Below are positions 1,746 to 61,081 of a stretch of DNA of 64,000 nt, one piece after another. The stretch comes from Neckera pumila (lineage: Eukaryota > Streptophyta > Bryopsida > Hypnales > Neckeraceae). The notes below the pieces were generated by a model. It was not told the DNA's origin and did not search any database. It saw nothing but the letters and a program-made list of their open reading frames with translations. The stretch covers positions 44,591,282 through 44,655,281 of the forward strand of contig OZ018409.1 of assembly GCA_963969595.1 (NCBI GenBank), given 5' to 3'. The translations under genes were made by a program, and so were the position numbers. How positions within the stretch are numbered: position 1 is the first letter of the stretch; every line of letters starts with the position of its first letter.

Positions 1746-2653
1746 TTAACCCCAAAAGGACCAAACAACGTTTTTTGGCAACATAGCAATTTTAGGCAGC
1801 TCACTACAAACGGAAATTTTATTTTTTTTCTTTGAAATTTTTACTCAATATGCGCATGAGGAGTAGCTTTAAGGCCCAACAATTTTCAGAACTTCTGACT
1901 ACATAGCTAAAAAGTTAATGGATGACATGTCATTTTCAACGTTTGGCGGGCAGCTCAATTTTTTTTTGAAAAATCACTTTTTTAAAAATGGAAATTTGAA
2001 AATGGTCCTCTAGATTTACATATACATGGAAAGCTTTGAATTATTCCATTTTTATTTATGAGATGAAAATTACAAAGTGTTCTAGTTTGCGGGCAGTTAT
2101 GGACTCTCTACTCTAAAATAAACTTTGGAGTTCTTTATTTAACTCAATTTTTAATATTTTTCCAAAAAATTAAAAGCGTAGGATTTGTGTTGTTTATTAC
2201 AACATTACAATCGTTGGGATTGACATTTTATAATTCCATAATTAAATTCTTAACAATTTAGTGTTTTGAATCATTCTCTACTTCTTTCTACTTACTATTT
2301 TTTTCCTATATGTTGTACAATTTCAAATAATTTGAAATTTTTTGAGCATGTAGCCAACTTGCTTTGAAGAATGAACCCAAGGAGTTACCACCATTTGGGA
2401 GATTTCTTCCTATAAATGTGACCTTGTGAAGTGTAGCTGCCCGGATTTTTTCAATTCAAACGTTATTATTGTGCAATCTACATGGTAAAAATTCTGAAAT
2501 TTTTTCCACATCTTTTCAAACCAGTGCACTATAAGATCCTATGGTTACATGTGTCTAAAAATGTTTTTTTTTCTAAAATTTGGTACTTGTATTAGAAACA
2601 ACAGTTTTGGAGCAGTTTTAATGAAAACATAGTCTAAAACCTTTAGGGATTAA
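1746..2653 (-). mobile_element. TTAA-flanked non-autonomous element, family A
   Basis: The left end reads TTAACCCCAAAAGGACC and the right end CCTTTAGGGATTAA, so it has terminal inverted repeats and TTAA on both sides. The interior matches the other family A copies: the 'ttttgggcagctcactac' block next to one end and 'ccatttctagta' with 'catagtc' next to the other. It carries the uninterrupted site 'aaattcTTAACaattt' at about 2244-2258, which is the empty site for the nested insertion at 42401. No transposase frame. Confidence 0.85.
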
Positions 2654-3381
2654 GAAATTGATCTACTAAGTACTTTTAGGAGGATCCAATGGTTGTTACC
2701 TTATTATTTTCTACTATACAAAAAAGTGAAGGCTTTTTTCAATACCCTATTTTTTTATAATCACCCGATGCACATATTACCAATGCTCTAGTAGATCTAT
2801 CAAAAGTATAAACTTTTCCTTCAACGAATTAAATTGATTCTATTTTTTATCTCACGCAATTTTCTATTGCATTGATGGTCCCCCCCCCCCCCTCCCCCCC
2901 CCCAAGTCTTTTTCATACAAAAGCTAAATAAGTCTTTTTTTCATTTCAATGGTGGTGTTTATCAAAACTATTTCACAAAAATGAGGAATTATGCATATTA
3001 CATGAGCTAGTCAAGAAAACAAGAGCTATGCTCAAACACCCCTAGTCCTTTAGGGTTTAACACTGAAATCATCCATTTGACCTTTTAGGTCTATAGCATC
3101 TTTACAAGGTTAAAGTGCAATAAAATCTACTTTGGTTTTTCATTTTGAAGAAACTAAACCAGAAGATATTTTGTAGTCTTTTACGCAAGTTTTAATATGC
3201 TTTTTCAAGGTTGACAAGTAGGAAAATTAAACAAAATCATATGAAGCATGTGCCTACTCCCTTGTCTATTTTGTCACAATTTAAAGTCATTATGCTTTTG
3301 GAACCTAGTTTATTTCATTTATTTGATCAATTAATTGCACTACACTAATAATGATATTTATCGTTACCTATACTAATTGAT
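2654..3381. other. Intergenic DNA with a poly-C tract
   Basis: No gene is visible. The only notable structure is an almost pure C run at 2880-2903 interrupted by one T. Such a homopolymer is a likely assembly or sequencing weak point, and could form an i-motif/G-quadruplex on the opposite strands. Confidence 0.5.
2880..2903. repeat. Poly-C tract, 24 bp with one T
   Basis: A run of C broken by a single T, in otherwise AT-rich DNA. Read directly from the sequence. Confidence 0.9.
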
Positions 3382-5226
3382 GTAACCCCTAAAGGACTAA
3401 GTGTCCATTCAATGGACACTTGAAAACTATAGGAGGGTCATACGGATTCAATTTTTTAAAGGATGTTTTTAAAATTTTGACATAAGAGGGGAACATTCAC
3501 CTCCTTGATGAAAATCTAAAAAAATTCCTGTTGGATGCTAAGATCAAAAGTTATGCTACTCCAAAAAACTCAAGGAGATTTATCTTTGTAAATTAAAATA
3601 TACACTTGAGCTGAGAGGGTATTTGATGTGGGGCTATCTATATTAATTGTTGCATTTAACATGACCATATTTTTACATAAAAAGCTACAAGGGTATATTT
3701 TCAATACCCTATATTTTTTGGTAAATTCATTCATGCGTTTTTTTAAATGGAGCTACCTTACATACAAAATTTACATGCCAAATTTTTTCTTGCCAACGCC
3801 CTTCTTTACAAATATTTCCTTCCCTCTACTACATACATGTGTAGGATATAGAACATGAAACCAACAAAAATCAAATCAATTCAATTCAAGTGCCATTGAC
3901 CAAGTGGCTGTTTTTAACAACAAATTTACCATTGAATACTTCAAAATCCCTATTGAAACTATTACGTGAACATCCCATTCAATATGAGTGTGTTTAACAC
4001 ATATGGCCTTAGAGATTGAAGTTAAATAGACTATAAATTCTATCCTCATATTGTACAATTTTTCAAGTCATTGAATCCACTAAGGTAAACTTCTCAGATA
4101 TCCGTGCAATGTTACAATTTCTAACATTTGTGGTCAATGTCTTACATTTACACTTAATTTTTTGATATATACACTATTAGTATTGTGGCACAATTTCCAT
4201 CAACTATCCTTCTTTGTAGATTTTTTTGATTGTGCTCATTTGATCATTCACATGAAATTATCTATCTATATCTATATTCATTGTACCATAAAAAATTTGC
4301 ACGGCCCCTATCTCTTAAGGCTAAATTAATAATAAACATTCTTACTACATGATGTTTTTATGTTTTTATATACATTAGAGTATGTGAAATTTTATAACTC
4401 TTTAGTAGCCCTACATATTATATAAAATTTTCCCCCTTCAAATTAAATTAAATCTATCTTTTAACAACCAAGAGTAATCACTCCAGGCCAAAAAAATCCT
4501 TGCGGTTTAGGTGTTTTGGGCATCTTTTGCCAAATTTGTCATCTACTTTTGAAATTTGGCATGTTGGTAAAAAAAATGATATAGTATCTAATTTGGAATG
4601 TCTACTAAATTTAGCACAAAAATCTCTTTCCAAGAAGAGCCAAACTCTACTAACCTTGCCAAGCATTTTGTTCTAACTTTAAATGTTGTTTTATTGAAAT
4701 TTATGATTTCAAGGTTTTGGAATTTTTCCCACATATTCCATATGTTTGTATTTTACTCTTTACCATTTGAACTTCAAATAAAATTATTCTTCACTGCAAA
4801 AAAAAGCATCAAAAGATTGACTATTCTATTGCCAATTCACTTAACCAGCCTCATTGTTTTGTAGGTTGATTTAGAATAAGCTAGACTTCATATTTGCTTT
4901 TGAAATTTTGCATGAGTATACCTAACAAGATTTAGATTTCAATGGTGTAGAGATGCAAATTCATCAAGAGCAAAATTTAACTCCAAGAGGGCTCAAAGTA
5001 TGTTGACCTTGTAGACCTCAACCGGATTTTTTTCTCACTTCAAACACTATAATTTTTCAATCCACATAGTTAAATGGTCTAAAAGTTTTCCAACATTTCT
5101 ATAATATTCTACCACATTTTTGTATAATTGAAGTTCAAAAAAGCAATTCAATTTTAGTGAATGTCCAAAAAAATGGCAATTTTTGACCATTTCTTACAAA
5201 ACAAAATCTAGTCTTTGAGGGATTAA
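3382..5226 (+). mobile_element. Diverged TTAA-type element, family B-like, enlarged
   Basis: The left end is gtaaCCCCTAAAGGAC followed by 'gtccattcaatggacac', which resembles the family B start. The right end is 'gtctttgagggattaa'. The right-hand 250 bp ('caaacactataatttttcaatcc' and following) resemble the family B 3' part. At about 1.85 kb it is double the family length, so it may contain an unrelated insertion or be two decayed copies. Boundaries are uncertain. Confidence 0.45.
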
Positions 5227-5340
5227 AAATGCTCTAAATTTTTATTCCTCATAAATATTATGGATATTTTTCTCTTTAAATAATATTGGATATATTCTCT
5301 TGATAAAAATATTTATCTCTAATAAAGACTTATAAAAATA

Positions 5341-6470
5341 TTAACTCTTGAAGTCCCAAGGTCTTTCTTTTAGCAAATTCCACTTGTAATTGTCATTTCT
5401 ATTGCAAACCAATATTCTTTTTTTGGCAATTTTTCATCAATTTGCACAAAAATAATGGGCCTAGCACCAAGCCTATAGAACATAGTAGTACTAAAAGGGT
5501 AGAAAATTGCCAGAAAAATTCAAATTTAAAAAAAACACTTTAATGAAATTGCCAGATTGTGGATGAAAACTGAATTATGGACATGTGATGTGTGCTAATG
5601 TGCTAATTCTATCCAATACGTAGATGAATGTTGACATTTGGAGCACTACTATAAAATCTAATATTTCCACTTTGGCACTTCATAAAAAATGAAAAAAAAA
5701 AAATATTGCAAACTACAAAAAATTTAGAAATTGTTTTTTTTGCATATCTAAATGTAAGATCTTGCACTAGACTAGTATAAGAATGTGTGGAAGAAATTTT
5801 AGAAACTTTGACCAAGTAGATTGCAAGATATTTGCATTTGAAAGAAAGAAAACTAATTTTTTACACCTTGAAAGTCTAGGAAAATGAATTCAAAAAAATC
5901 CACTTGATTTTCATTCTTTAAGAAATTATTAGGTAGAAGTGGGTATGAGATTGAAGAAAAATCTACATTGCTAATAGGTCTACAATGGAATGAGAATGCA
6001 AAAATTCCAATGGTGAGGTTGTTCTAATAAGCCAAATAAACCTTAGCAACCTTTTTTTTTAATTTTGAAAATTGTGTTCAAAAATTAATCCTATGAGATG
6101 GAATCACTTTTTCAAAAAAGATGATTAGATTGCTTGAAAAATAGGATTGTCCATAACTTTCTCATCACTAGTCTTAAAGAATGAATCATTCAAATCTTCC
6201 CATGTAGACAAAAATATTTTGTATGTGAAAGAAAATTCTATTTTGATTTTTTGTGAATATTTTTGTGTTGCCCAATGACCCCCGTTTAGAAATCAAGTGC
6301 CATAACTTTGTTCCCGGGCACCAATTGATATAAAAATTGTATTCCTAGAAAGCTAAAGTGTTTTCTATCTTTTAAAAATCATTCAAAATATCTTGATGAA
6401 AATTGAGACTGTAGGAGCCTTCCTAAAATCTATTTTATCCTTGACAAGACAATGAGACTTTAGGAATTAA
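5341..6470 (-). mobile_element. TTAA-type element, family B, carrying a retroposon
   Basis: It starts TTAACTCTTGAAGTCCC and ends GAGACTTTAGGAATTAA, decayed versions of the family ends. The interior has family B landmarks on the minus strand: 'gtaagatcttgcactagactagta' and 'ccataactttgttcccgggcacc'. It is about 0.29 kb longer than a normal copy because a retroposon at 5410-5703 has inserted into it. Confidence 0.7.
5410..5703 (+). mobile_element. A-tailed short retroposon (SINE-like) with 10-bp target duplication
   Basis: The 294-bp insert is bounded by the exact repeat TATTGCAAAC at 5400-5409 and 5704-5713 and ends in an A-rich tail (about 5684-5703). Other family B elements lack this block at the same place, so the insertion is clear. 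A related block with an A tail lies at about 53530-53811. I could not place convincing pol III A and B boxes, so calling it a SINE rather than a truncated LINE end is inference. Confidence 0.7.
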
Positions 6471-6663
6471 ATCAATTAGCTTAGGTAACACTAAATACCA
6501 TTTCTAGTGCACTCCAGTTGGTCCATGTAAAAATGCCATTTTGCTAACAATATTTTAAAATTCCTAATTTATAGGCTCACATCTTGAGTACAATTGTCTC
6601 CCAGGAATTGATGTGTTGCATAAGTTTTTATTTCAATCCCTAGAAATCATAAATAACTGTGGT

Positions 6664-7595
6664 TTAACCCCTAAAGGTCAGAGACTATGTTTTCACCAAA
6701 AATGCTCTAAAACTGCCATTTCTGGTACAAGTATCAAAGTTTAGAAAAAAAACATTTTTGGACACACTTAACTACAAGATTGTATAGTAAGCTTGTTTGA
6801 GAGTGTGTAGAAAAAAATTCAGAATTTTTCACCTTGTAGATTGCAAAATATTAGCATTTGAATTGACAAAAAACCTTTTATTGGCCCTGCAAAAAATCGG
6901 GCAGCTGCACTTCATAAGGTCACATTTAAATGAAAAAATGTCCAAAATTGTGGTTACTCCTTGGATTCATTCTTTAAAGCAAGTTGGCTACATGGAAGAA
7001 ATTTTCAGATCATTTAGAATTGTACAATGTATAGGAAAAAAATAGGTTGTAGAAAGAAGTAGAGAATGATTCAAAACACAAAATTGTTAAGAATTTAATT
7101 ATGGAATCAAAAATGTCAATCCCAATGGTTATAATTTTGGAATAAACAATATACATCCTATTCTTTTATTTTTTTCAAAAAATATTAAAAACTAAAGTAA
7201 ATAAAGGACTTCACAATTTATTTTAGAGTAGAGAATCCATAGTTGCCCGCAAACTAGAACACCTCATAATTTTCATCTCATAAATCAAAATGGAATATTT
7301 TAAAGATTTACACATATATATAAATCTAGAAAACCAATTTCAATTTTTTTTTGTTTTTTTAAAGTAATTTTTCAGAAACTTTTTGAGTTGCCCGCCGACA
7401 GTTGAAAATGACATATCATGAATAACTTTTTAACCATGTAGTCAAAAGTTTTGAAAATTATTGGGCCTTAAAGCTACTCCTTGGGCACACATTATGTGAA
7501 ATTTTCAAAGAAAAAAAATAAAATTTTCGTTCATAGTGAGCTGCCCAAAATCGCTATATTGCCAAAAAAACATCGTTTGGTCCTTTAGAGGTTAA
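6664..7595 (+). mobile_element. TTAA-flanked element, family A
   Basis: It begins TTAACCCCTAAAGGTC and ends TTTGGTCCTTTAGAGGTTAA. The interior carries all family A blocks in order: 'catttctggtacaagtatcaaa', 'acaatgtataggaaaaaaatag', 'tgttaagaatttaattatgg', 'gagttgcccgcc' and 'gctatattgcc'. About 0.93 kb, non-coding. It shares its right-hand TTAA with the next element. Confidence 0.9.
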
Positions 7596-8534
7596 CCCCT
7601 AAATGCCAAAGGCCTTTTTTGTACTTCTTGGAATTCGTTTTGAATTGAACAAAAAGCCAACATTTTGATAAGTTGTATCAATTTTTTTTGTATTGTGAAA
7701 AAACATGTTAGAGATCATTAGGAAAAGAAAATTCATCCATTAGAAAAAATTTGAATCCTTGGGAAGGCCGTTAAGTTTTTATTTTTTGGCACCTTGCGGT
7801 GCAAGTAAAGAATTTTTTATTTTTTTTTAGTATTATTTTTTGAAAAGAAAATAGTAAAAAAATGTAAAAATAGTAAAAAAATAGTAAATTCTGACGTGGC
7901 GCTTATGCGGCACAAGTAGTGCCACATCATATGTTAAATTGAAAAATAAAAAATAAAAAATAAAATAATTTTATTTCCTCTCTAATTGCATCCGGTGAAT
8001 TCAAAACTCATAGCCTTTTAAAGGGCTAAAATTCTTCCTAATGAATAGTACTGATAGATTGAAAGTTTATAAAATTTGATCATGAGGATGTTAAAATGGC
8101 AACAATGATTTGAAGTCTTTCAATCCTCTTTTCACATGGTAAATATAAAAAATTGGTCACCAAAAAAATATGAGGTTAAAGGGCCTAACATGCATAACCC
8201 CAATCAATTTGTAACTTCTCAAGATCTACTCTACAATTTTTTTAAATGGATTTGTAATGTGCTTTTTTCTCCAAGATCTAGTGTATTTGAGGCTCATTTC
8301 CAAGAGCTCTCCAACACTACGGAAAGTCAAGATTGCAATGGACACCCTCGCACAAAATCTTGAACAAAAAATCATGATCAATCATTTTCAAAATCGTTTT
8401 TTTAGTGCTAAAACTAGACTTCAAAACTATTTTTTTCAAAAGTTCAAACTATTAAAAATAGCAACTTAATTAGATTTTGTTTTTCAAAATATTATCAATA
8501 CCAAAATTTGGTGCCTTAAGCATTTAGGGATTAA
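7592..8534 (+). mobile_element. TTAA-flanked element, family C
   Basis: It begins TTAACCCCTAAATGCC and ends AAGCATTTAGGGATTAA. Its interior differs from families A and B but matches, in reverse, the element at 38535-40086, including 'ggctcatttccaagagctc' and 'aacactacggaaagtcaag'. A short frame inside is not conserved as protein between the two copies as far as I can see. Confidence 0.8.
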
Positions 8535-10400
8535 TCAATTGTAGTAAAATGCATTATAGGGTCACTCAAAGACCCTAATAAATGTAGTCTATGTACAATA
8601 ATATTAGTGTCATTGACAAAGTCTTTTTAGAGTCACTTAAGGGTTCTTAAATGAACAAATTCTTAATGCATAGCAATCATAAATCATAATTGCAGTTATT
8701 TTCTCTTTTGGCATAAAAATTGGAATAGAATGGATTTTGAAAAATTGGATTTTTCATAATTCTTGATACTTTCAAGGAGGGCCAACACTATAAGAAAGAC
8801 ACATTTTGGGGGTTGTTTGGCAAAAAATGCACCGTATTTTTTCGATTTGGAGCGGGAGTAGTGGAAATTTTGTATGACATCCACAAAAATGAGCACTTGA
8901 GAGAGGGCCAGACAGCTACATGTCAGCACGAATGAGCATGTCAAAATGAACATCCAAGAAAACAAGCCTACGTTTTTACGAGACATATTGATGTTTTTTG
9001 CAACCAACAAGCCCAAAAATTGACATTTCACATTAGCTTAGGCAAAGAGACAAGGACTTGAGTGTCTTTTAATTTTCATTTATGGTATCTATCTTTTTTT
9101 ATCAAAGCCCTTTTTCTTTTGCCTCATCTCTTTTTTAGTGTCTCTTGTAATTGAACCTTCTAGGGCATCAAAGCTTCAACTTGATTTCTGTCCCAAAAGC
9201 AACAAGTCTTTAAACAAGCATTTGAAAACTTCAATGAAGATTCTATAATTGAGGTCAAATATTGTTAGCTCTACCACAAAAGTTCAACAAACTTTTAATT
9301 TTTTTTCCGTCATTTTATTGATCCATGGTAAGATTAATGATACTAGAATATCTTTCATGATTATCACCAACAACTGTAGCAAAGTTGAACTTAAAAAATT
9401 AGATGAAAATCATTTAGTTTTCACAAGACTTATTTGACCATTTATAAGTCATTTTGTGGGTTCTTTCAACACTTTAGCTAGGTTAAAGCATTTGCAACTT
9501 TGCACTGGGAGTGTCTGACACAAAGCTAACGTGCATGAAAAGTGTTTTATGTACTTCAAGATATTTTGCAAGTATTTATCCTACCTTGCTAAGATTAGGC
9601 TTGTCCAATCTAATTTAGCCTATGTTTTGGTCAATTCACTATATCATCTCAAAAAGGTTTGTCATATTGCACTAATATGACTTTCACCACAATACCATAG
9701 CAAATGTAATTAGCAAATGAACTTCTAATGTAATAGTAACTTTTAATAATTTCAATAATATATAAAAGTTGCAACTTCAAAAAAGTTATGATTTTACAAA
9801 ATTGTTATGCCTTTTCAACGTTATGAAATTCTTTAAAATTATAACTTCTAAAAAGGTAGTAAATTTTCATGTTATATGAGGTTTATACAAAGTCGCATCT
9901 AGTGTAGTATTGCGAAAGTCATATGAATGTCATATGACCATGACAAGGGGGCTCTATGGAGATGATATGGAACACATTTGGTTTGTTAATCCCAGAAGGA
10001 CATGCTGGTCACCCTGCAAATCAACTTTTTTGGTACAATATGAAACATTTGTTTAAATAAAGCCAAAAGCATGCATTGAGGTCAAACTACTATACAAGAC
10101 CTTCCCTTTTCACACAAAATTTCAAAGATGAACATCTACTCTTCTATCTTATATAGAAAGATTCTATATCATCCATTGAACATTTAGTGTCCATGGCATC
10201 CTTCTAGAGTGGAGCAGCGATCCCAAAACTGGCTAGATTTTGCTCAATTTCTACTTAATTTTCCATACCCTCAATATAAATTCAAAAAAATCTTCCAAAC
10301 ATGAACATTTGGCTAAAACCCCTGAACCCGTTCTGAGATAGCTGGGGTGGAGGGTGGAAAATAAGGAGTTGGAAGTCTCCCCAAATATTCTTGAGAAATG
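8535..10400. other. Gene-free AT-rich DNA
   Basis: No supported gene, RNA or element boundary. A minus-strand open frame at 8696-9031 (111 codons) has no recognisable motif and sits in AT-rich DNA; I do not call it a gene. Confidence 0.5.
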
Positions 10401-11937
10401 ATAGCGTGTCAATCTTGCAAGGGTGCCGATGCTCTGCAATCTTCCGTCTAAGATAGCGTACTTGTGGGGTTGGTGTTACGGTATAATTCAAAGAGTGGAC
10501 CACAACACCACCAAAGCAGTTTGCACTTTTCAACCATGCACGTCCACGTCCACGCAACCAGCACGGCGCAACAACCAAGGGACACATCATTCAAATTCTC
10601 AATGGATATTCCCTACTTATGAAAGGCTGAAATGAAAGCTGAACTTCGTGTGATAACAAGATTATCCGCATCCACAATGCCACACAAGATTTCTCTCAAC
10701 ATTTCTGAAGGTCAGATGTGAGAATTTCAATAAATAAAAAGACCTCAACGAAATGCAGAATTAGCCAAGCTTTGGTACAATTGGGCTTCGAAATGTACTT
10801 ACATGTGTTCACAACTTGCTATGTGAAAGCTGCGGATCAAATGTGTACACAATATGATAAATTATGAGGACGATTATACTATGAGTGTGTAATTGCAGAA
10901 GGTCTTGTGAACCTGAAACAACGACATGGATCAGTGTTGATGGAAAGAGACCACCATGTCCTCGTTATTCAGTAAAATAGGAATGCTGGAATGAAGGATC
11001 TTCCGGTCAAACACAAATGCATACTTCCAACTGTGCGCAGGCTCAACAATTTAAACTTGTCCCTTAGTTTGTAATTACGAAGGCCTACAACTTACTTCCC
11101 ACTCTTGCAGAACTCTCGTGCACTTTGGGTGCCTCGGCTGTGGCATTAAAGAGGTCTGGATGAAGCAAAGAGGAAAACCAGAGAGATGCAGCAATTGTAA
11201 AATAAATAAACAGTCCATTGAAAGATTAGACAAGTCCAGGATTTGAGCCACACTACACAGGCATTACAAAGTCATGTACATTAAATTTACAGTTTCTTGA
11301 ACGGGACTCCTCATTTGGTACGAGGAGCTACCAAAAAGCAGTCCCAACTAAGTAACATGTCAGGAATTCTACAGGAAGAGTAACTCACAATGCAACAAAA
11401 GATGGAGAAACCACTTCCGCTGACATAAAATTCCTTCGATCGAAATCCGTGTGTCTACTCCAACGCTCCTTCCCAAAAAATTCGGAGAAAAATCTTCAGT
11501 TGCTTCCTCCTTGTGCTGTCAACGAGAGTGCTGCTCAGGAAATCGCACCCAGCGTATGTTCTATGGAGAGAATGTATCTCAAGTCTACGTTTCAGGAGCT
11601 CTGTCACCTGAGCAGCACTCGTCCCCTGTCAAAACCTATACTACATGGAAGGAGCAATGGCTGGCAAGCAAATCTCACGCAACTCCCTTTTTTTACTGTT
11701 TTCGAGGTATCTTCATGTCGTCGAATTTCAGCCTATATACAGAAAAGGACACGTTCTTGCAAGCAAGCTCATCTAATGCTTCACTGCATTCGCAAGCGCA
11801 TTGTTGGCTATGGCGATCCAAGCATGTTGGGCTATGCAGCAAACTAACACAAGCTTCCTGCAAGCTCGACTCTCTCGAGAATTTATACGGCGCCGCAATC
11901 TGGTTGCACAATGCGGCATGCTTTCGTCCTGATATGA
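10401..11937. other. GC-richer DNA 3' of the RTFL gene
   Basis: Base composition shifts upward compared with flanking transposon DNA, as around the other genes here. Two overlapping plus-strand frames (11449-11847 and 11451-11945) have no motif I recognise. Part of this stretch is probably the 3' untranslated region of the minus-strand RTFL gene. Non-coding or undetected exons cannot be excluded. Confidence 0.4.
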
Positions 11938-12168
11938 TCACTTGATGGAGTGCTTGTGCCAAAGCAGGAGCATCGTGATGCAGCGGCGCACGATGTAGAG
12001 CTTGCCGCGCTGGTGCCGGATGAATGACAGCGTGTTCTTGGTGCCGTTGGAGATGCAGTTGCTGTGCAGCGAGTAAATGCCCCCAGTCGACCGCCGCTTG
12101 CCGGCCGTGTTCTTCCAGGAGTCGCTCTCATCGATCGTTGCCGCCTCTCGACCATAACACTGACCCAT
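11938..12168 (-). CDS. DEVIL/ROTUNDIFOLIA-like small polypeptide
   Basis: A 76-residue single-exon protein. The C-terminal third (about residues 51-73, RHQRGKLYIVRRCITMLLLW then HKH) matches the RTF/DVL domain: a basic QRxKxYIxRRCIxML core ending in a Trp-bearing hydrophobic run. The N-terminal half is Ser/Lys-rich and unconserved, as usual for the family. It starts MGQC, which would permit N-myristoylation at Gly2 and palmitoylation at Cys4; that is inference. Family knowledge: these plant peptides act at or near the plasma membrane and restrict polar cell proliferation during organ growth when overexpressed. The ATG chosen is the only one giving the family length. The coding region is far richer in GC than its surroundings. 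The overlapping plus-strand frames at 12024-12465 are antisense shadows. Confidence 0.8.
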   Translation of the reverse strand: MGQCYGREAATIDESDSWKNTAGKRRSTGGIYSLHSNCISNGTKNTLSFIRHQRGKLYIVRRCITMLLLWHKHSIK

Positions 12169-13110
12169 TTCGCACCTACTCCCAATTCACGCAAGAAAAA
12201 CGAAACCCACAACCAAGAAGAACCAGAAAAAACTCAAAACCATCAAAACCATCAAAACCCACAAAGATTTCATCACGCAAACGCAACCATTTGCAAACTA
12301 CTCTCCATGGGCACTCCCACGGGCTCAATTCAACCCACAAGATCGAATAGAACTTGCGATGACTCGCTCAACGACACCGACAATCTTTTCCTATGCAATG
12401 CAAAATCTCTGCCGGCCATGGAATCTTTAATCATCGACTCGGTGCATGCCGCCCAATTTAGCTAGGCGCCCATCACGTACGTTTACTAATTCAATGCCAC
12501 ACCTCAATTCCAACACAATCTCGAATTCCACATGCAACTCAGCACGCCCCGAACCCAAACAGAATTACAGACTGATCCGTCACTAAGTTACTGCTCCATC
12601 CCCAAGACTGAAACTGAAACTGAAACTCCGGGAGTGTGCCGACGGCATCCAGCCAGAGCTTCGGTCTCATCAAATAACTTGCCAGAACCTCCGGCAGCCC
12701 GGCGACGCAGCGTGAGAAAGCGACAATGCTTCTCGCGAAAGGAATACTCGCAAACGGATCGAATCCGGGGAGTGCAAATCAGGCCAAATTGGAAATTGGG
12801 AATTGGAGGGGCCTACAGATCGAATGCATGGAGGTTTCGTGGTTTGGAAGAAAGGCAAAGCCACAGGCTTGTGGGCTTCATCGCCAGGCTTGTACTTAAC
12901 TTGCTGTGAGAGGTGACGAACTGACGATGAGCAGAGGGCGGGGGAGGGGAGCGTTCACACTGGTGAGGCTTGGTCCGGGTATGGAATCTCCGAGGGTATG
13001 GCAGGGTATAAGAGGGTATAAGAGGGTATGAGTACTGGGGTGGAAGGAGGACGCGGCGACAGAGTTAGGTGCAGCGGATCTTGGTCTGATTGGTCTGATT
13101 ATCGAAAACA
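12169..13110 (-). promoter_or_regulatory. Presumed 5' UTR and promoter of the RTFL gene
   Basis: About 0.9 kb of GC-richer, repeat-poor DNA lies upstream of the minus-strand RTFL start. It includes a short direct repeat with 'gggtat' units (12976-13030, 'agagggtataagagggtat'). The overlapping frames at 12532-12909 (+) and 12670-12864 (-) show no motif. RTFL genes typically have long untranslated leaders, so a leader plus promoter is the likely content. I cannot place a transcription start. Confidence 0.4.
12976..13030. repeat. Short GGGTAT-containing direct repeats
   Basis: The unit 'agagggtata' or 'gagggtat' recurs several times with spacings of about 10-18 bp, within the presumed RTFL upstream region. 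It may be a simple minisatellite or a cluster of regulatory sites. Confidence 0.6.
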
Positions 13111-13547
13111 TCCTTTACGTCAGCACTGCATGTCAGCATCGGGGTTTTTTTTCCATATATTTTAAGCAGTGCAGAAAACGATAATCTCTAGAAGGATGAA
13201 GATATTTACATCCATGGGAATGGATGAGACTTGCAATCTAAGGGATTTCATTTATTCATTCAAATGATGTACATTCATCCAATAATGAGTGATACTGTTC
13301 CAAAATTTGGTAGCAAATTAAGAATTCATCCACTAAAAAGCAAGAATATACTGCCAAATATTCCTTGAGAAAAAAAAATAAGCGCTTTCGAACGAATTTT
13401 GCTACAAAAGAACCCGTTGGTTAGCATGGCTATAGGAGAAACAACATGGATGCAATATACAAAACATGGATGAAAACATAATTATTCATCTAAAAGCCTA
13501 TAAATTCACCCTTAATAGAGCAATATTATCTATAGATTTTATAGCAA

Positions 13548-42772: not shown

Positions 42773-42818
<46 letters not shown>

Positions 42819-49240: not shown

Positions 49241-49310
49241 ATTGCTTTTGGAGATGTACCCAGACTGATGATGGCAGTTTCATTGTGGGGGCCTGCCCAG
49301 TGCCCACCTT

Positions 49311-49382: not shown

Positions 49383-49696
49383 TTCTTAGGCTTATGGCTG
49401 TCTGTGTGGGGCACTGGAGCACCGCTTTCAGTTTTGGCTTTGTGTTGCATGCGTTTCTGAGCGAGGATGCTAAAAGCTTATCAAGTATCCACAATTCCAC
49501 ACTATTTAATTTCAAAACCCAGTCTAGAGATGACATTTAAAATACACTGCAATAATTTAAAAAAAACATCGTGAAAAGGAGCCTCACTTTGTGAAAAATA
49601 TCAACTCCAGGACAGAAATACAAAGTAGATTCTTGCTTGGGTCACTCTGATTTCTGGATGTTGGGGCATTGAATAAGGTGGGAGTTCCAAGGTTTA

Positions 49697-51541
49697 GGGC
49701 CGGTTTATACTTGGCCTGGGGTCGGATGGAAGGCCGGCTGGATTTGCCTTCAATCCGGCCCTCAATCTGGCCCCAATTCTTCCATCCGGCCCCAATTAAT
49801 GTAAAGCCCTTGGGCTGGATTCCAGAGCCCAATTTTCAATTCATGTGCTCTTAATTTTTTTAATGCTCAATTAAAAAAATATAAAAAATATTAATGTTTT
49901 TCTTTTTCTTCCTTTCTTTCCTATTTAAAAAAGAAAAAGAAAAGTTTATTTATTTTTTTATTACTTTTTTTTTCTATTTATCCTATTTCAAAAATAGAAA
50001 AAGAAGTTTTTAATTTTATTTTAACTTTTCTTTTTTATTCCTATTTTTCCTATTCCAAAAATGAAAAATTGATTTTTGTTTATTTTTTTGAAACTTTTCA
50101 TTTTCTCCTTGCAACAAAATATTTTGGTCCTTTCACTATACGGGTTTGAAATATTCACACAACTAATTGACTAAACCATGTAAATATAGATTATGTATTA
50201 TTTTTATTATTTGGTGTGCACAAACATTTATGTATTATTTTTATTCCGTGCAAGCAAATGTAGATTATGTATATTTTTAATCAATATATGCGAACATAGA
50301 TATATGTTAATTTTAATCAGTGTGCTTGATTTCCTAGTTAGAAAGTGGCCTTATTGTTACATTAGTTAAAATAAAGTACTGAGTCAAAATCAAAATCAAC
50401 TCAGTTTACCAAACTCAATCAAATATTAAACAACATTGGTAAAAAATGTAAATTAGCTAACAAGCATTACAATTCAGTTAAGCCTCTAAACAAGTATTAT
50501 GATTCAGTTAAGCCTCTGAATAATAAGGGCCGCTTTTCACCAAGAAGCCGGGCCAATTCTCCTTCAAGCCAATTGCACAAAATTTCAGCCCCTTTTGGGC
50601 TAGAGGTTGGTTTCAACTTCCCATTAGAATAAGATTATAATGGGGGGCCAATTTTCCCATATGTAAAGGCCTTAAGGTCAAAAAGCCGGGCCGATTCAAT
50701 AAAACCTACAAAAGAAAGAGAGAGGGGCTGAAATTTTTAGGACCACTTTACACCTAGAGGCCGGTCCTAATCCCCATGAGGCCAATTGCATAAAATCCAA
50801 CAGTAATGATTAGTTGAAAAAAATAGTTTTTTATTAAAACAATTTTTTTAATTGAAATCTGACATTGGCCCCAAGGCCAAGAATTGGCCTCCCATTTTTG
50901 GTGCACCCAATTCAGCGAGCTCGAGCCATGTCAGATCATGTCTTTTTTGAATAAAAAATTCAATTCACCAAATTGGCCCAACCTCTTGGTGTAAAGGGGT
51001 TGGGGCTCATTTGAGCCTTTTGTATAATCAGAAGTTAGGATTCTTGGCCTCTGACACAAGAAATTGGCCCGGCCTCTTGGTGTAAAGCAGCCCTAAGGTT
51101 GTGTTTATCCTTCACATATCACTGTGTTGCATCTTGCTAACTTGAGCAAGCATGGGATTGACAATAAAGCCCCAAAATTTCAGCAATGCAAATGGAAGGA
51201 AGTTTCTTGAGAATACAATTACCAAGCATGTAATAAAAAAGGATAGAAAAGACCTTGCATTAATAGACGGTGGAGGTTTGTACAATCCAACGGAGGGGCT
51301 CCATCCGGCCTAAGATGGGAGTTCGAGCCACCCAAAACCTCGTCCCGATTGCTCCCTTTGGGCCGGATGGTTTGGCACCAAAACCATGCCACCTAAGGTG
51401 ACACGTAGGATGAGTTGTAGTTCCTGCCGGCCCCAAGTATAAAGCCCTTGGGCCAGATTTGGAGAAATTGAGTGATTCTATTGGTTCAAACTTGGAGAGT
51501 TCCGGCCAGCCTTCAATCCGGCCCCAAGTATAAACCAGCCC
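49697..51541. mobile_element. PIF/Harbinger-like TIR element with nested MITE
   Basis: GGGCCGGTTTATACTTGG at the left pairs with CCAAGTATAAACCAGCCC at the right, with TTA on both sides. Sub-terminal blocks 'ttcaatccggccc' and 'aaagcccttggg' recur near both ends. The middle carries the 567-bp MITE 50527-51093. No transposase motif. Confidence 0.82.
50527..51093. mobile_element. PIF/Harbinger-like MITE with nested inner TIRs, copy 2
   Basis: GGGCCGCTTTTCACC at the left pairs with GGTGTAAAGCAGCCC at the right, with TAA on both sides. It is the inverted counterpart of 21777-22342, including the inner TIR pair. It lies inside 49697-51541. Confidence 0.88.
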
Positions 51542-51594
51542 TTAGTGTACAGTATCCTAAAGAAAGAGTATTGTACATAACTTCTGTCTCTTAA

Positions 51595-53084
51595 GGGCAA
51601 CCCCATGGCTAGTGAGCAGTGTTTTTTTTTTTCTTAATTTAAGGAAATCTGAAATTGGGCTCCAGATGAGAATTCAGTAGCTGAGGTTAGGCGCCCTAGA
51701 AAAAAAATTTGGTGCAAAATTTGGCTCCAAGTTAAGAATTGGTGTGAGTAATATGGCACCAAAAAAAACCCTGAGAAAACATCTCTAATAATTTCAGCTC
51801 TTGGACTAGTGCCTCCCCGGCCTTCCTCTCTCCTTAGCACTTTCAAGTTTTCATTTCGTCTCGCTTGAAAAACAGGCCCAAAATTCTCTCTTTCCACAAG
51901 TGCAGTTGCAATAACCGAATCGCAAAGTAGCAAACTAGACCAGATTCACCAGTGGCCGCAAGCCCCAAAATTAGCAATAAACCTTTTAAGAAGGTCCACC
52001 TAAATTTCTCCAAAGTGAATGGGCCTTGTTCCTTTGGCGACCATTTCTAATTTCTTATTAACAGACAAGAAAACCTGGTGATATGACACAGGCACCGACA
52101 TGCATGCGGCTACAATTTCTATTAATCTTACCAACTTTGGTGTAATTTAGGCGACACCAAATGAAAAGTTGTTGAATCAACCATTCCACAGGTGGCGACA
52201 AGGTTGCATACTTCAAGAGTCATTGTGGAGGCAGTGGCCGCAAGGGTGTCATCAAAGATTTGGATCTGGCTTCTTAAACTTTTTTATCTCCACATTTTTT
52301 TGAAGGCTTGGTGCAGGAGATAAATTTTTGGTGCTTTTAGTCTTTTTATTGCCATAAAAAACAACACTAGTAGTGAGTCGGAGAGGCGTGCCAAGAGCGA
52401 TCTTCTGTGGCCTTCAGCGCGTGTGGTGGTGGCGCTTTGCCCCACTAGGCACTCCAAACAATGTACGCGGAAATCGGGAAGTTCGGAACCTCCAAAAAAT
52501 AATCCACTACATTATGGGTGGGCAATCTTTGGGTGACGTTTGATGATGATGGAATTTTTCTTTCGAGCTATTTCATTGGACCTTGTGGCATTACCTCGGA
52601 AATGATGTCGGATCTTGTCTCAAATTGCAAGTTTGAACTGCGAGTCTCTATTTGCCTGTGGCTTCTTCATTTTTGGCTATGGCCGGGCATGTTTTTTCAC
52701 TTGGCGTGCATGCCATGGGGCAATTTCCAAGCCACGGCCCGCTCATTGCCTGTGTTGACAGCCTTTGGCACGTTGCTATGGGGTTGCTCTAAAAAACATG
52801 CCCGGCCACGGCCAAAAATGAAGAGGTTACGGGCAAATGAAGTGTTTTGAATGCGGCTCGCCAAGCTATTAAATAATCTTTTGAGTCTCACCTTTTGAAA
52901 GCTTCTCTTCAAAAGTTGAAGAGATTCCTTTTAAAATAATAGTAATAGGAAATTTGGAGCACCTTTTGACCACTTGGCAAGTCTCCTCGTGGAGCCATGA
53001 TTCTTCAATTGAAATGGCGGCACGCTAAACCACAAGATTTCTTCCTTTGGCGCCTTTGTTGCGCATGTTAGCTGTGGGTTGCTC
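51595..53084. mobile_element. PIF/Harbinger-like TIR element, about 1.5 kb
   Basis: GGGCAACCCCATGGCTA at the left pairs imperfectly with TAGCTGTGGGTTGCTC at the right, with TAA on both sides. A further 'gggttgctctaaaa' copy at 52781-52795 and an internal inverted repeat ('gccgggcatgttttt' at 52682 with 'aaaaaacatgcccggc' at 52791) suggest a smaller element nested in it. The 110-codon plus-strand frame at 52518-52850 crosses these repeats and has no known domain. Confidence 0.62.
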
Positions 53085-54225
53085 TAAAGGCTTAATTTTG
53101 AAATCATATTTAGTGTATGATCCATCAAGATTTTGAAAAAACTTTTTGAACAAAAATAGCTTAGAATTTATAGGAGAACAACTTTTGTCTTTAGCCAAAT
53201 AGCGTATTGTGCATTTGTAGTGAGTGACTAATTGACAAAGTAGAAAGGTGTTTTTTTCAAATCACATTTACTACATCACTTACTAAGATTTTGAAATTAC
53301 TTCTTAAAAAGAAACAACTTAGAACTTTCAAGAGAATAACTTCCATTTTAAGCTCAAAAGCTTATCATGCCTCAATGGTTCACAATTTAAGCCCAAACAA
53401 GTGGACCAATCTCAAAAGACAACTCATCTGACCAAATAATTTGTTTCTAGTCTTCTATCGTCCAATGCTAGTTATGTATTGCAAAGATTAGCCTTGCAAG
53501 CTTGTGCTTGTTGTTTATAAACGACTTTCTTTTTGGCTTTTTGGTGCCAGATTGCACCAGAAAAAATTGATTTGGCTAAAAAATGCCTTATGAAATGTCA
53601 AAAAAATTGGATGAAATTGCCAAAAAAATTCAAAGAGGAAATTTTTTTTGGATGAAATTGCCAGATGTGTATGAAAACCAAATTATAGACATGTGATATG
53701 TACTAATGTGATCTTTTCTATCCAGTATGTTGATGAATGTTGAAATTTGGAGCACCACTAGAATATTTTATATCGACACTTTGGCACTTCTTAAAAAATG
53801 AAAAAAAAAGCTCTGCTTTATTGCAATGCAAGATTGATAGTCCAAACTATGGATTACCTTTTGGACTATGACAATGGTGAGATTGGTCCACTTGTTTGGG
53901 CTTCATTTGTGAACCATTGAGGCATGATAAGCTTTTGAGCTTAAAATGGAAGTTATTCTCTTGTAAGTTCTAAGTTGTTTCCTTTCAAGAAGTAATTTCA
54001 AAATCTTAGCAACTAGTGTAGTAAACATGATTTGAAAAAAATACCTTTGAACGTATAATATTTCACTTTGTCAATCAATCACTCACTACAAATGCACAAT
54101 ATGCTATTTTGTCAAGAACAAAAGTTGTTCTCCTATAAATTCTAAATTGTTTTTGTTCAAGAAGTTTTTAAAAAATCTCAATGAATCATCCTCTAAATCT
54201 GATTTCGACATTTAGCCTTTAGGCA
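53082..54225. mobile_element. Foldback element with arms of about 340 bp
   Basis: The left arm at about 53085-53430 and the right arm at about 53877-54221 are reverse complements at high identity. An example is 'aagcttatcatgcctcaatg' paired with 'cattgaggcatgataagctt'. The ends are TAAAGGCTTAATTTTG and its diverged complement ending GCCTTTA. The central 0.45 kb contains a relative of the A-tailed retroposon at 5410-5703. No coding frame. Confidence 0.85.
53530..53811 (+). mobile_element. Second copy of the A-tailed retroposon, diverged
   Basis: It shares with 5410-5703 the blocks 'gacatgtgatrtgtrctaatgtg', 'gatgaatgttga' and 'ggagcac-act' and the final 'cactttggcacttc' before an A-rich tail. 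It sits in the loop of the foldback element. Target duplication not found. Confidence 0.55.
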
Positions 54226-54389
54226 GTAAACTGGAAGTTATGTACTCTTTCTATGGGGTATTGTACAGTAATGACATAAGTTATAACCCAATACTTCCAA
54301 AGGCTGCTCTAATAAGCTACAGTATAGTATAATAACTTAGTGTACAATATAGTACTGTATTGTAGTACCAAAATGCTCACCAACGCTAC

Positions 54390-55320
54390 TTTTCCAATTG
54401 CTACGGCACCCCAAGTTCAGTGGTTGCTAATTGTTTGAATTGGGAGCTACATTGGCTGATCTACAGGGCTTTTAGTGATCAATTCTCACTTTTGAGTGTA
54501 ATGAAAACTCGTCCACTACCAGTTTGCAGTTCTGTCAGTTAAAAATTAGAAATAACCTACTTCAGTAACCCTGAAAGGACGGATCCTATGACTATGTGGC
54601 ACCCCCCAAAGGACGGATCTTATGACTATGTAATAATCCAAAAAGGATGGAACCTATGACTGTGTGGTAACCTTGAAAGGATGGATCCTATGATTGTGAT
54701 ATATTCGTGAAAGGACGGACCCTATAATCCATGTGATAACTTTGAAAGGATGGATCCTATGACCATGTAGTAACTTTGAAAGAATGGGTCCTATGACAGT
54801 GTAGTAACTTTGAAAGGATGGATCTTATGACCTTGTGGTAGTCCCCCAAAGGACAGATCCTATGACCATGTAATAAATTTGAAAGGATGGATCCTATAAC
54901 CGTGTAGTAGCCCTCAAAGGATGGACCATGTGATTGTGTGGTCAAACTTCAAAATCTTTGAATGTGTATATTTGACTAAAATTAAATGATTTAAAAAAAA
55001 ATTCAGCGCTACTCTTCCAATTGCTACGACACCCCAAGTTATTGGTTGCTTGAATTGGGAACTACAGTGGCCAGTCTACAAGGCTTTTAGTGATCAGTTC
55101 TCACTTCTCAGTGCAATGAAAAGTCGTCCACTACCCGTTTGTAGTTCTGTCGCTAAAAAACAAGAAAAAACCTACTTTGGTAACCCTGAAAGGACAGACC
55201 CTATGACCATGTGGTACTCCCCCCAAAGGACTGATCTTATGATTGAGTAGTAGCTTTGAAAGAAAGGACCCTATGACCATGTGGTATCCCCAAAGGACAG
55301 ACCTTATGATTGAGTAATAA
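54390..55320. repeat. Minisatellite array with duplicated leader
   Basis: About eleven degenerate units of 33-35 bp ('gaaaggatggatcctatgaccatgtggtaac' type) fill 54567-54945. A second, shorter array of about four units fills 55182-55320. Each array is preceded by a similar leader of about 170 bp (54390-54560 and 55005-55180), so leader plus array was duplicated as one block. Confidence 0.85.
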
Positions 55321-55629
55321 CACTACAACACAAGTGATGTTGTATGATTGCAAAATATAACTAAAATAAGTCATAAAATCTCAAAATATGACTCATGCAA
55401 AATTCACTGTAGATGATTTGCGCTATGACTAGGTCTAGTCATTACCGACGAGTTGCTTCAAACATGAGTCATATTTGTAGTCATATGGGTTGGGAGATAT
55501 AATTAGCCAAAATTTGCCATATTTTGCCAACGTGGCGTATATGTTGACCATCCTTGATACACTTGACTTTTTTTTGAGGTGCCCGAGCAAATGGACAAAA
55601 ACCCTACATGGCATATGACTGCGTGCAAT

Positions 55630-56060
55630 TATATTTTTGGCTGACATGGAATATGACTATGGTGAGTCATATTTTGGCTAACATGGTATATAACTCTAGT
55701 GAGTCATATTTTCTGCTGTTCTGAAAGCTGACTCTTATGAGTCATATTTTTTGCTATTGTGAAAGATGATTCTTGTAAGTCATATTTTCTGCTAAAAAAT
55801 GACTCTTGTGAGACATATTGTTGGATGATGTAGAGTTTGACCCTTGTCAGTTATATTTTTGTTGATTTGAAATATGACTCCTATGAGTCATATTTTTGAA
55901 TGATGTGGCAATCCATATGGAATGTTATTAATAATTTTATGATTGAATGTAGTCATATTTTTAAAGTATTGAGTCACATTTTTGGCATGATTGTGAGCAT
56001 CGTGTGACTATCACCAATCATATTTTCACCAAGATATTTTGTGAAATATAATTGAAGCAA
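55630..56060. repeat. AGTCATATTT repeat field
   Basis: About ten copies of 'gagtcatatttt' or close variants are spaced 40-60 bp apart. Several are paired with an inverted 'atgactc' just upstream, so each unit can form a small hairpin. Confidence 0.8.
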
Positions 56061-56619
56061 ATAATATTCTGGATAAGTGGAGTCACATTTCTTAGATTTT
56101 TATTCGTGGTTTGTAATTGAGGTAACTAAGGCCTATGATAGTTTAATTCTATCATAAACTACACTCACATTTTCTATACATTTTAAATGGACCTGACGCA
56201 TTGCATTCATACATGAATATGATTTAGCAGCTAAATAAAAGATTCCATCCAATTAAAAATGAATACATATAATTTTTGAGATGCATAGACAGTCATACTA
56301 GAAAAGGAAAATGCAAGAAAGAGTGTGACTCTTCTCAATCACATTTATTAGTCACTAATACAAAATACATCACAATGACACTCTATAAATGCATATTCCC
56401 ACACATTTATAAGATCTATCCTCCTTACAAAAATGTGAAGATGTTGCCTCTTTGGTGTTGCAAGTAGTCTCTAATAACTTCATTCCAATTTGGTACCTAC
56501 ATAAACAATCAAAGAGGTTAACTTTCAATGAAATGAACAATATAGCTCAACCTTTAAAGATTTAAGGCAATACAAATATGTTGTACAAGTATAAGATAAG
56601 AAAAAGTCATAACCACTAT

Positions 56620-57250
56620 ATCTTTAGAAAATCACAGATAAAGAAGAAGAAAGAATAAAAATGGTAATAGAGGGAACAAGAAGCAAAAGGTGGCCAGTAT
56701 TTAAAGGTAACAACAAGCAAGAATTTAATGCAACAAGATACAACAAAAAACAAAAAGAAGAAAGAAATAAGATGCAACATGAAGCAACAAGAAACACAAG
56801 TTAAGATGCAAAAAACACAACAAATTAGAAGAAAAAGCAAGAATTGAGATGCAACTAGAGCTCTAGAAGTAACTAGAAGCATGAATTAAGATGCAACAAC
56901 AAGAAATTAGAAGCAAGAACTAAAAAAGCAACAAGAGGAAACAAGAAGCAAAAAGTAAGCACTAAGAGATAACAAGAGGAAATTAAAAGCAAAGAGCAAG
57001 AACTAAGAGGCAATAAGAGAAAATTCAAAGCAAGAACTAAGAACTAAGAACTAAGAAGCAACAAAAGCCAAGAACTAAAAAGCAACAAGAAACAAGAATT
57101 TAGAAGCAAAAGAAACAAGATCTAAAAGGTATTAATAAGAAACAAGAACTAAGAGGCAACAAGAAATAAGAGCTAAAAGGCAACAAGAGGCAAACCTAAG
57201 AGGCAATAACAAGCAAAACCTAAGAGGCAATAAGAAATAAAGAAGAAGAA
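56620..57250. repeat. Purine-rich degenerate repeat
   Basis: The plus strand is nearly all A and G with regular C, built from variations of 'aacaagaagcaa' and 'gaactaagaggcaacaag' over about 0.6 kb. The absence of stops in some frames is a by-product of composition. Confidence 0.8.
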
Positions 57251-57520
57251 ACACAAATAGCCAAATGTTGCACTTTGAGGGGGTGGCTCAAAAAAATGGA
57301 GGCTAGGGGTTTTAAAATCCTAAATCAATGGTGGCTACGTGAAAGTGGTGGCTAGGATTTTAAAGCCCTAGTTATATGACTTGCCCTAGTCATACATATG
57401 ACTTGCTCTAGTCATGTAACTTGTCCTACTCATGTAAATGACTTGCTCTAGTTATGTGACTTGTCCTAGTCATGTACATGGTTTGCTTTAGTCATAAGAC
57501 TGACCAAATATGACTATACT

Positions 57521-58340
57521 AAGCAACTAAGTTTTTCTAACAACCAAATTTGATCTAAAGAGAATACATATATTGACACTAAAATCTTAGGTATGCAACT
57601 CATGTATTATATACATGGGTCATCGGCATTAAAACGGCTTAGTAGACAACTTTTGTAAAAATTGTATCAGATTAAAAAGACCAAAAAATTAGGTGAAAAC
57701 CAAATTAAAAAAATAAATAAACATAGGAAATGTTGGGTTGCATACATATTAGAAAAAACTCACAATATTTTTGAAGAATTAGAACACCTATACATAGTTT
57801 TTAAGATTCTGTATAATAAATCCTTCCAATTAAGATTATTTTTTTATTAAAAAGCATAAAAAGTTGGATATCTTATCCCATGATACAAGTATTGAAATAA
57901 CTCATATAATTTGGTTTATAATGCTATTATTGTCCTCAAAAAACAGTCATTTCATATTTATAATTATATTATTGGACTTCTCTTTGAAAAGACTACAAGA
58001 ATTTTCTACAATAAAACAAATTATATTCCATGAAACTAGACTAAAATGCATTATAACTGATTATAATCAAGGCCATATAATATGGGACTATGGAAATTGC
58101 GTACCCAGGACTAAAACTCCATAAAATGCATAAAGGAAATTTGCAAGGCCTTAAGCACCTATAGTTATGGCAAAAAATCTAAATAGATGTCATGCATTTG
58201 TCAAAATATCTACGCTCGTGCACAAAATGTGCAGGAGCAAAAATATTTGATAGAGGCACTATTTAAAAGCATCTTTTATGCAAAAAAGGGATTATGCTTT
58301 TATAATTTATATCCTTGTAAAAACATCCAAGCAACCATCT
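57521..58340. other. Gene-free AT-rich DNA
   Basis: Two short frames (57662-57850 and 57864-58124) have no motif. Nothing else is seen. Confidence 0.45.
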
Positions 58341-59274: not shown

Positions 59275-60335
59275 ATTGCAATACAAGCACGTGTGTGCCA
59301 ATGGTAAGCCTCAATCTTCATATAAATAATTTTGTGACTTTTGTAGGGCCTGTAGAGACTCGAAAAATGTGGCTTATATGACATTGCTGAGAACATTTTT
59401 AAGAAAGAAACAGACTTCAATACATATCATAGACATATATACATGTATACATATGAGCATTTTATCTATATCATTAAGATAAAGTATGCACAAATGACCA
59501 TGTTCTTTATTCTTGAGCTTTGTGAATATTTAAATGGTGTTCAATTGGCATTGTAAGAATCTAAGCAACGAACAAGAATTTTCTAATGAAAAGTGTAAGT
59601 GGATTACTTCTTAACTAAAATTGGTACAAACTGTAAAAATTAGGGATTTGAGATGGTTTTAGATGGATTCAGCCAATCTAGGCCAAAACTCTAGACTTCC
59701 TAATCCAAGTTGAGAAATTTAAATTTCTTGTTAACTTTAGTTGTCAAGCACTGCATGCATATCCTAAAATAATAAAAATCTATATAATGGGATATTTTTA
59801 GCAAAAATTATGGATAGATGAAGTTTTATCACTAATTCATCTTTCAAGACTTCATCCACATTTGCACCTAGCCTATAAGTCTAAATTAATTTTTTACTTT
59901 CAAGATTGGATTCTAAATGTCACCTAAATTTGAAGGTTCCTTTCTAACTTGAATTAGATGAATTTTCTATATTTTTTAATCTAAAGCTAACACTCTTGAC
60001 TGTCTAATTTCATCGCATTTTATCCTCCTTAATTTTTATCGAGTTTTAAAATTGTGATAAATTTTACTGAAAACCTCTAGAAATTACCTAAGTATTCTTG
60101 AATTCAAAGTTGGATTTTAGTAAATTTTTAGAAATGTGACTCAAACCTCTTAATTTCTAATGTAACTATAGTTTCTATGAGAAGAAAAATAACAAAGTGC
60201 CAAATTGAAGGACATGCCTCGGAATCTGTTTCCACCACATTCTTATTCTCCAACACTCATGTTGTAATTGTAATTGTGTCATAAAGCTTGCATTGATCCA
60301 TTTTTGTTGCATTTTTATGTCTTTGTATATACAAC
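59275..60335. other. Gene-free AT-rich DNA
   Basis: I see nothing in this spacer between two TTAA elements. Confidence 0.5.
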
Positions 60336-61081
60336 TTAACCCCTAAAGGACCAAGCACCGTTTTTTGGCAATATAGCGATTTTGGGCAGCTCACTACGGA
60401 TGGAGTTTTTATTTTTTTTCTTTGAAAATTTTACACAACATGTGCCCGAGGAGTAGCTTTAAGGCTCAACAATTTTCGTAGCTTTTGACTATACGGTTAA
60501 AAAGTTATTGCATGATATGTGATTTTCATTGGACGGCGGGCAGCCCGGGCAGCTCAAAAACTTCTTTAAAAATGACTTTAAAAAAAATAAAAATCTGAAA
60601 TTGGTTCTTTAGATTTATATAGAAGTGTGAAGCTTTGAATCATTCAATTTGGATCTATGAGTCAAAAGTTATGAAGATTTTAAGTTTGAGGGTAGGTATG
60701 GAGTCTTTCAAAACCATAGCTACCCACAAACTTAAAATCCTCATAACTTTTGACTCATAGATCCAAATTGAATGATTCAAAGCTTCACACTTCTATATAA
60801 ATCTAAAGAACCAATTTCAGATTTTTATTTTTTTTTAAAGTCATTTTTAAAGAAGTTTTTTGAGCTGCCCGGGCTGCCCATTGTCCAATGAAAATCACAT
60901 ATCATGCAACAACTTTTTAACCGTATAGTCAAAAGCTACAAAAATTGTTGGGCCTTAAAGCTACTTCTTGGGCATATGTTGTGTAAAATTTTCAAAGAAA
61001 AAAAATAAAAACTCCATACGTAGTGAGCTGCCCAAAATCGCTATGTTGCCAAAAAATGGTGCTTGGTCCTTTAGGGGTTAA
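60336..61081. mobile_element. Palindromic TTAA-flanked element (two family A ends head to head)
   Basis: It begins TTAACCCCTAAAGGACC and ends GGTCCTTTAGGGGTTAA. The two halves, about 60336-60702 and 60715-61081, are reverse complements at very high identity around a centre of about 10-15 bp. Each half equals the 'ggcagctcactacg' end of family A. The other family A end is absent. Confidence 0.95.

Follow-up and report, generated by a model that had tools for sequence, protein, structure and literature searches.

The window analyzed here, a 64,000-nucleotide stretch of contig OZ018409.1 (designated C2 in an assembly of 339.5 Mb and 18 contigs), contains a dense population of short elements bounded by TTAA. 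These are almost certainly non-autonomous transposons of the piggyBac superfamily, similar to miniature inverted-repeat transposable elements (MITEs), that reside in a moss genome and would be moved by the DDD transposase of larger elements. They are MITE-like in size (about 0.75–0.95 kb) and share the ends TTAA|CCCCTAAAGG, their termini reading CC...GG. A first-pass annotation of the window had described ends beginning with CCC, which is borne out, and CCC as the first three terminal bases is reported to be common in piggyBac (PMC10813416; here and below, papers are cited for individual passages). Self-comparison grouped the elements into family A (eight copies), family B (six well-kept and three decayed copies) and a pair of C elements, beside which there are a foldback and some fragments. 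Both ends were mapped for 17 elements, comprising eight A, six B, two C and the foldback. These are listed first, followed by the decayed and partial relatives.

1746–2653, minus strand: A-family MITE; BLAST and profile match from end to end, TTAA at both ends
6664–7595, plus strand: A-family MITE; right TTAA in common with the C element at 7592–8534
7592–8534, plus strand: C-family element with a different interior; left end TTAACCCCTAAATG
13548–14491, plus strand: A-family MITE; both ends exact over 14 bp
16392–17325, plus strand: A-family MITE
17881–18734, minus strand: A-family MITE with an internal deletion
20089–20932, plus strand: B-family MITE
25639–26565, plus strand: A-family MITE
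33976–34841, plus strand: B-family MITE
34881–35809, plus strand: A-family MITE; right tetranucleotide CTAA
38535–40086, minus strand: C-family element, split by the B element at 38588–39523
38588–39523, plus strand: B-family MITE nested within the C element
41896–43773, minus strand: A-family MITE, split by the B element at 42401–43352
42401–43352, plus strand: B-family MITE nested within the A element; empty site in six sister copies
43770–44722, plus strand: B-family MITE, abutting the A element at 41896–43773 through a common TTAA
58341–59274, minus strand: B-family MITE; both ends exact over 14 bp
60336–61081, no strand assigned: foldback of two inverted A right ends (94% alike), bounded by TTAA on each outer side
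5705–6470, minus strand: decayed B-family copy (profile matches 5705–5864 and 5867–6470)
46636–47523, minus strand: decayed B-family copy (profile)
47954–48857, minus strand: decayed B-family copy (profile)
37259–37820, plus strand: B-related short element (profile matches 37259–37436 and 37537–37820)
44898–45270, minus strand: B-related fragment (profile matches 44898–45196 and 45201–45270)
3383–5225, plus strand: B-related remnant in pieces 3383–3563, 4610–4738 and 4929–5225 (profile)

The annotated number of some two dozen elements is reached only when the decayed and partial relatives are counted in, and the coverage, given there as about a third of the window, was measured as 27.6% with the A and B family profiles and 30.0% with C added. 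The 14-base end motif TTAACCCCTAAAGG occurs 56 times when up to three mismatches are allowed, as compared with 7.7 expected, and none of 100 shuffled sequences reached 56; only 12 of these ends are exact, at variance with the annotation, which had quoted the 14-base end for all copies. As a further correction, the segment at 60336–61081 is an inverted duplication of an A right end. All families have TTAA and most of the terminal 10 bp in common. When one of the two is reversed, the A and B consensus sequences are 58% identical from end to end (mean 38% with 20 shuffled B sequences), and their conservation is uneven, being highest near alignment columns 80–200, 440 and 620, with a variance that was reached by none of 2000 column shuffles. 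Because A and B are homologous throughout, only C is distinct in its interior, and the proposed minimum of three interior families is reduced to that extent.

The longest stop-free runs in the window consensus sequences are 93 amino acids (A) and 58 amino acids (B), and the A and B MITEs were therefore taken as non-coding. No transposase domain was detected in 18 of the 25 open reading frames of at least 100 amino acids in the window, in two shorter frames, or in six stretches scanned in six frames (1500–6495, 8535–13531, 13548–18543, 20933–25638, 48859–53856 and 53500–58340); the same scans matched only a phosphatase, U1-type and CCCH zinc fingers and a DVL peptide. For the parts scanned, these results agree with the earlier statement that no window element encodes a transposase.

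Two side observations concern the interiors and arrangement of the elements. The words GGGCA/TGCCC are enriched in 15 elements (31 as compared with 3.1 expected from mononucleotide shuffles) and ATAACTTT words also recur inside A and B elements; because related copies have the GGGCA/TGCCC words by descent, no binding site is claimed. The foldback hints at the possible mobility of a symmetric element with two right ends.

Target site duplication and genome-wide abundance

The left tetranucleotide is TTAA in all 17 mapped elements and the right one in 15 of the 17, the others being CTAA and TTAC; the outer letters are T at 17 of 17 left ends and A at 16 of 17 right ends. In two pairs of abutting elements a single TTAA is common to both neighbors (7592–7595 and 43770–43773). 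When the B element at 42401–43352 is removed and one TTAA is left, the A host reads straight through, and the corresponding empty site is a single TTAA in four of six sister A copies and TCAA in the other two. The second nested insertion (B in C, 38588–39523) gives no test of duplication because the only sister copy has a gap at the site. The window thus supports TTAA as the four-base target that had been annotated, and the target and its 4-bp duplication are those of the piggyBac superfamily.

The same was found beyond the window. Among 30 copies of A taken from the genome, including one from the window, TTAA is present on the left in 26, on the right in 27 and on both sides in 24. Exact ends reading TTAACCCCTAAAGG number 18,843 in the genome, as compared with 2 for a reversed-pattern control, and those reading VTAACCCCTAAAGG number 729, so that the outer letter is T in 18,843 of the 19,572 ends reading NTAACCCCTAAAGG (96%). 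The genome-wide inspection of flanks that the annotation had proposed, to distinguish TTAA from a duplication of only TTA or TAA, is accordingly decided for TTAA. A scan of viral contigs with an 18-base end gave no matches.

Scaling the 18,843 ends by the ratio in the window (12 exact ends per 19.2 kb covered) suggests that the elements amount to about 30 Mb, or about 9% of the genome, exact ends in the window being about 3.4 times denser than the genome average. In 86,420 flank bases around 29 other A copies, a non-random sample, the A and B profiles cover 13.9%; matches were found in 18 of the 58 flanks and in none of the shuffled flanks. The genome copies most like the A element at 6664 lie about 4–8% from their consensus, apart from one misoriented row (L023, 1 of 30 copies), the divergence of which (0.51) is an artefact and which was still in the data when the consensus was taken. 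For the three transposase families whose ends are known, the divergence between paired copies is about 0.5–1.2%, and for another family it is 2–2.5%. The sampled MITE burst is therefore older than the youngest transposase copies (4–8% as compared with about 0.5–1.2%).

Transposase-bearing elements and their shared ends

A search for the piggyBac transposase domain (PF13843, DDE_Tnp_1_7) gave 872 candidates in the genome; all 116 that were scored are above the cut-off, with a best E-value of 4.6e-80, and 14 control genomes gave no match. The matches lie on eleven contigs (C1–C11) of the 18, the longest being 52.8 Mb, and 18 of the first 30 matches listed have the domain without an internal stop. 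In 30 fetched loci the DDD triad is intact throughout, and identity to locus L061 ranges from 34 to 98% across the 29 others (L043 is the L061 locus itself). The L061 frame of 844 amino acids scores 256.6 bits with PF13843 and aligns with the solved Trichoplusia ni piggyBac (6x67) at an E-value of 8.7e-26, and a frame of 655 amino acids from a second family (L032) aligns at 1.9e-34. In the L061 frame, the counterparts of residues D268, D346 and D447 of the Trichoplusia enzyme are D553, D644 and D762. The insect element thus resembles those described here in its TTAA target and duplication, its CCC-starting ends and a related transposase with the same triad, but the alignment is weak, the end here is CCCCTAAAGG, and the insect element is 2,472 bp long (PMC10813416) as compared with 5.4–7.3 kb for the moss elements.

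The 30 fetched loci with flanks of 1.5 kb contained no shared end at up to two mismatches because the elements are longer than these flanks. Ends were determined for three transposase families. L061 and L062 each contain a 7.3-kb element; the two copies are 99.4% identical, have the ends TTAACCCCTAAAGGACC...GGTCCTTTAGGGGTTAA and are flanked by unrelated sequence. The second family is 5,631 bp long with ends TTAACCCCTAAAGTCCC...GGGACTTTAGGGGTTAA; TTAA bounds each of two copies, which are 99.1–99.8% identical in the three stretches compared. The third, a 5.4-kb piggyBac family (L063:1490-6860 and L064:1537-6908), has ends TTAA[C/T]CCCTTGGGGAC and copies 98.8% alike. Elements with the same ends as the MITEs and an internal DDE_Tnp_1_7 transposase with its DDD triad, the check that the annotation had suggested, were found in the 7.3- and 5.6-kb families, and the superfamily assignment, which had been an inference there, is now supported by a PF13843 transposase inside TTAA-bounded elements of this kind. 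Between these two partner families (L061:1089-8388 and G000:C2:8442023-8447653) the ends run in the same direction and the transposase region is inverted, which implies an internal inversion in one lineage.

Family B has both ends in common with both partners, the shared stretch measuring about 200 bp at one end and about 100 bp at the opposite end. Its consensus matches the left ends at 69.7% over 208 bp (E 3.5e-18) and 73.0% over 211 bp (E 3.1e-30), and the right ends at 76.8% over 99 bp (E 1.8e-15) and 77.1% over 96 bp (E 1.2e-16). Family A matches the left ends at 68.5% over 200 bp and 73.4% over 173 bp. As for the earlier proposal of a single transposase for all families, the shared ends speak for it in the case of B and more weakly in that of A, and C gives it no such support.

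In the mechanism we favor, the 5.6- and 7.3-kb elements would supply a DDD transposase that recognizes the shared ends TTAA|CCCCTAAAGG, excises the element and inserts it at TTAA, with the 4-bp duplication as the result; a TTAA hairpin and seamless excision would be expected from piggyBac biochemistry. B would be a shortened relative of the transposase-bearing elements that is mobilized in trans, A would be a sister of B, and C may use the same or a related enzyme. Judged from sequence, the population represents a new lineage within a known superfamily; it is abundant and apparently recently mobile.

Weighing of alternative origins

Several observations weigh against assignment of all the elements to piggyBac and to the partners described. 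The A consensus has only 18–19 bp of its right end in common with L061 (36 bp in the copy at 13548) and no significant match to the second partner there, and C matches L061 over 28 bp of the left end (85.7%) and in one weak internal stretch, with nothing significant in the second partner. As read by script, TTAA is missing from one or both sides of six of the 30 genome copies of A. In five of these (L004, L012, L016, L025 and L028) the departure is confined to a single side, and that of L025 is a misreading by the script, the end running on beyond the match; L015 has ATAA on both sides, as would follow from 4-bp duplication at a target other than TTAA. The ends start with CCCC, so that the fourth base departs from the strict CC[C/T]T hallmark (PMC2872659), a motif that we do not take as defining because the superfamily also has CACTA, CCCTC and CCCAT ends (PMC10813416). 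Finally, the L061 frame stops short of a cysteine-bearing tail that is kept in L031, L032 and L054, and this copy may therefore be non-functional; zinc-finger models of Pfam gave no match above the cut-off in the four frames scanned.

The alternative with most weight, to which we give slightly less than an even chance, is that the transposases found here move B alone, and that A and C rely on different piggyBac (or other) enzymes. The distribution of partner ends is as this would predict, B having both, A one strongly and C barely, and the many transposase lineages at the fetched loci could provide such enzymes; set against it are the TTAA and terminal bases common to all families and the homology of A and B from end to end. 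Attribution to other superfamilies is far less probable. TTA and TAA are both contained in TTAA and PIF/Harbinger (Tourist-like) MITEs are common in plants (PMC10004981), but a 3-bp duplication would leave the outer base free, whereas the outer letters in the window and the 96% outer T in the genome exceed that expectation, and the partner transposase is of the piggyBac type; such an origin is very improbable. Kolobok elements and the Xenopus T2 MITEs likewise duplicate TTAA and form large MITE families (PMC9587614, PMC6004289), but they have 5'-RR...YY-3' (RR/AGGRR) termini and another transposase, as opposed to the CC...GG termini and the DDE_Tnp_1_7 enzyme encoded by same-ends elements here, and we regard Kolobok as a highly unlikely source. 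TTAA is the target of Sola3 as well, the enzyme of which is a Sola transposase; the partner elements here have PF13843 instead.

PiggyBac is known mostly as an animal transposon, and the assembly might in principle contain sequence from a moss-associated animal. Two protein searches with the transposases listed 40 and 61 matches, mostly jgi, lgn and ena records; the named ones were from Rotaria, Acyrthosiphon, Ixodes, Callosobruchus, Solea, Stylophora, Leguminivora and Macrobrachium, together with one fungal record, and no named plant protein was among the matches listed in either search. Contamination is nevertheless hardly credible, since the transposase matches are spread over eleven contigs of up to 52.8 Mb and the MITEs adjoin plant genes within one contiguous window. 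A quick tree with 102 rows (midpoint root, no bootstrap, nine matches, P0205 and P0214–P0221, left out) has a branch with support 100 that sets apart a group of 50; the ten moss transposases used all lie in it, and its other 40 rows are of the jgi, lgn or ena type and include no named animal. The moss rows are scattered over several lineages inside this group, and the jgi, lgn and ena rows may represent moss DNA in environmental samples.

Host genome and significance

A PHOSPHO-type phosphatase gene lies on the minus strand of the window, with exons between about 30618 and 28758. A PDB search with part of the phosphatase, entered with one wrong residue, gave no useful lead. Ranked by identity, the closest named protein is that of Physcomitrium patens (75% over 86% of the query), followed by Sphagnum (62%), the alga Klebsormidium (60%) and most listed seed plants (about 47–55%); lgn records reach 82% identity with full-length coverage and 94% with coverage of 54%, and the order by E-value places one Senna tora protein (47% identity) above Physcomitrium. 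From these identities and a DVL-family small peptide gene (11941–12186, minus strand), the host is most likely a moss other than Physcomitrium, and the annotated location of the elements in a plant genome is upheld by the adjacent phosphatase, which is closest to mosses among named proteins. The phosphatase forms a divergent pair with plus-strand frames at 31012–32031 that match U1-type and CCCH zinc fingers. The window also contains an inverted repeat pair (21773–22346 and 51097–50523, 94% identical and about 29 kb apart), with no Pfam domain in those regions, and a tandem-like array of units of about 34 bp at 54381–55328 with words like AAAGGAYGGA.

The closest described parallel is in corals, the CMITEs of which are TTAA-flanked families with tandem copies, one tied to a piggyBac-like partner through identical ends; they differ in being about 100 bp long with CC[C/T]T ends, as compared with about 930 bp in the moss (PMC2872659). 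In land plants, PiggyBac annotations (PMC6890710, PMC10004981) have only the superfamily label in common with the present elements: one consists of traces in a fern, where a table has 1,230 pieces accounting for 0.00% of the assembly (PMC6890710), and the other gives the name in a list, as opposed to the 18,843 ends and the 116 transposase matches scored in the present genome. The view that piggyBac is rarely if ever a major land-plant component stands in so far as the plant reports are of this kind, but the superfamily is not unheard of there, being listed among plant or angiosperm superfamilies in two reviews (PMC10794571, PMC10004981) and described as isolated from plants in a third paper (PMC10813416). 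For mosses, the passage on Pohlia nutans gives 23.68% DNA transposons with no mention of piggyBac, and in a Niphotrichum paper the word occurs only in the phrase "expression piggybacking." No moss piggyBac population was found in the literature searched, which lay outside subscription papers and supplements.

That mosses, and perhaps other land plants, have an ancient piggyBac clade of their own, mislabelled or unlabelled, still jumping and making up roughly a tenth of this genome, is a proposition that we consider as probable as its opposite. The moss adds a heavily colonized plant host to the superfamily and provides a candidate piggyBac system native to plants. Whether elements of this kind go unnamed in the repeat annotations of other moss genomes is a question that the finding raises, and whether the clade was inherited or gained by horizontal transfer becomes testable.

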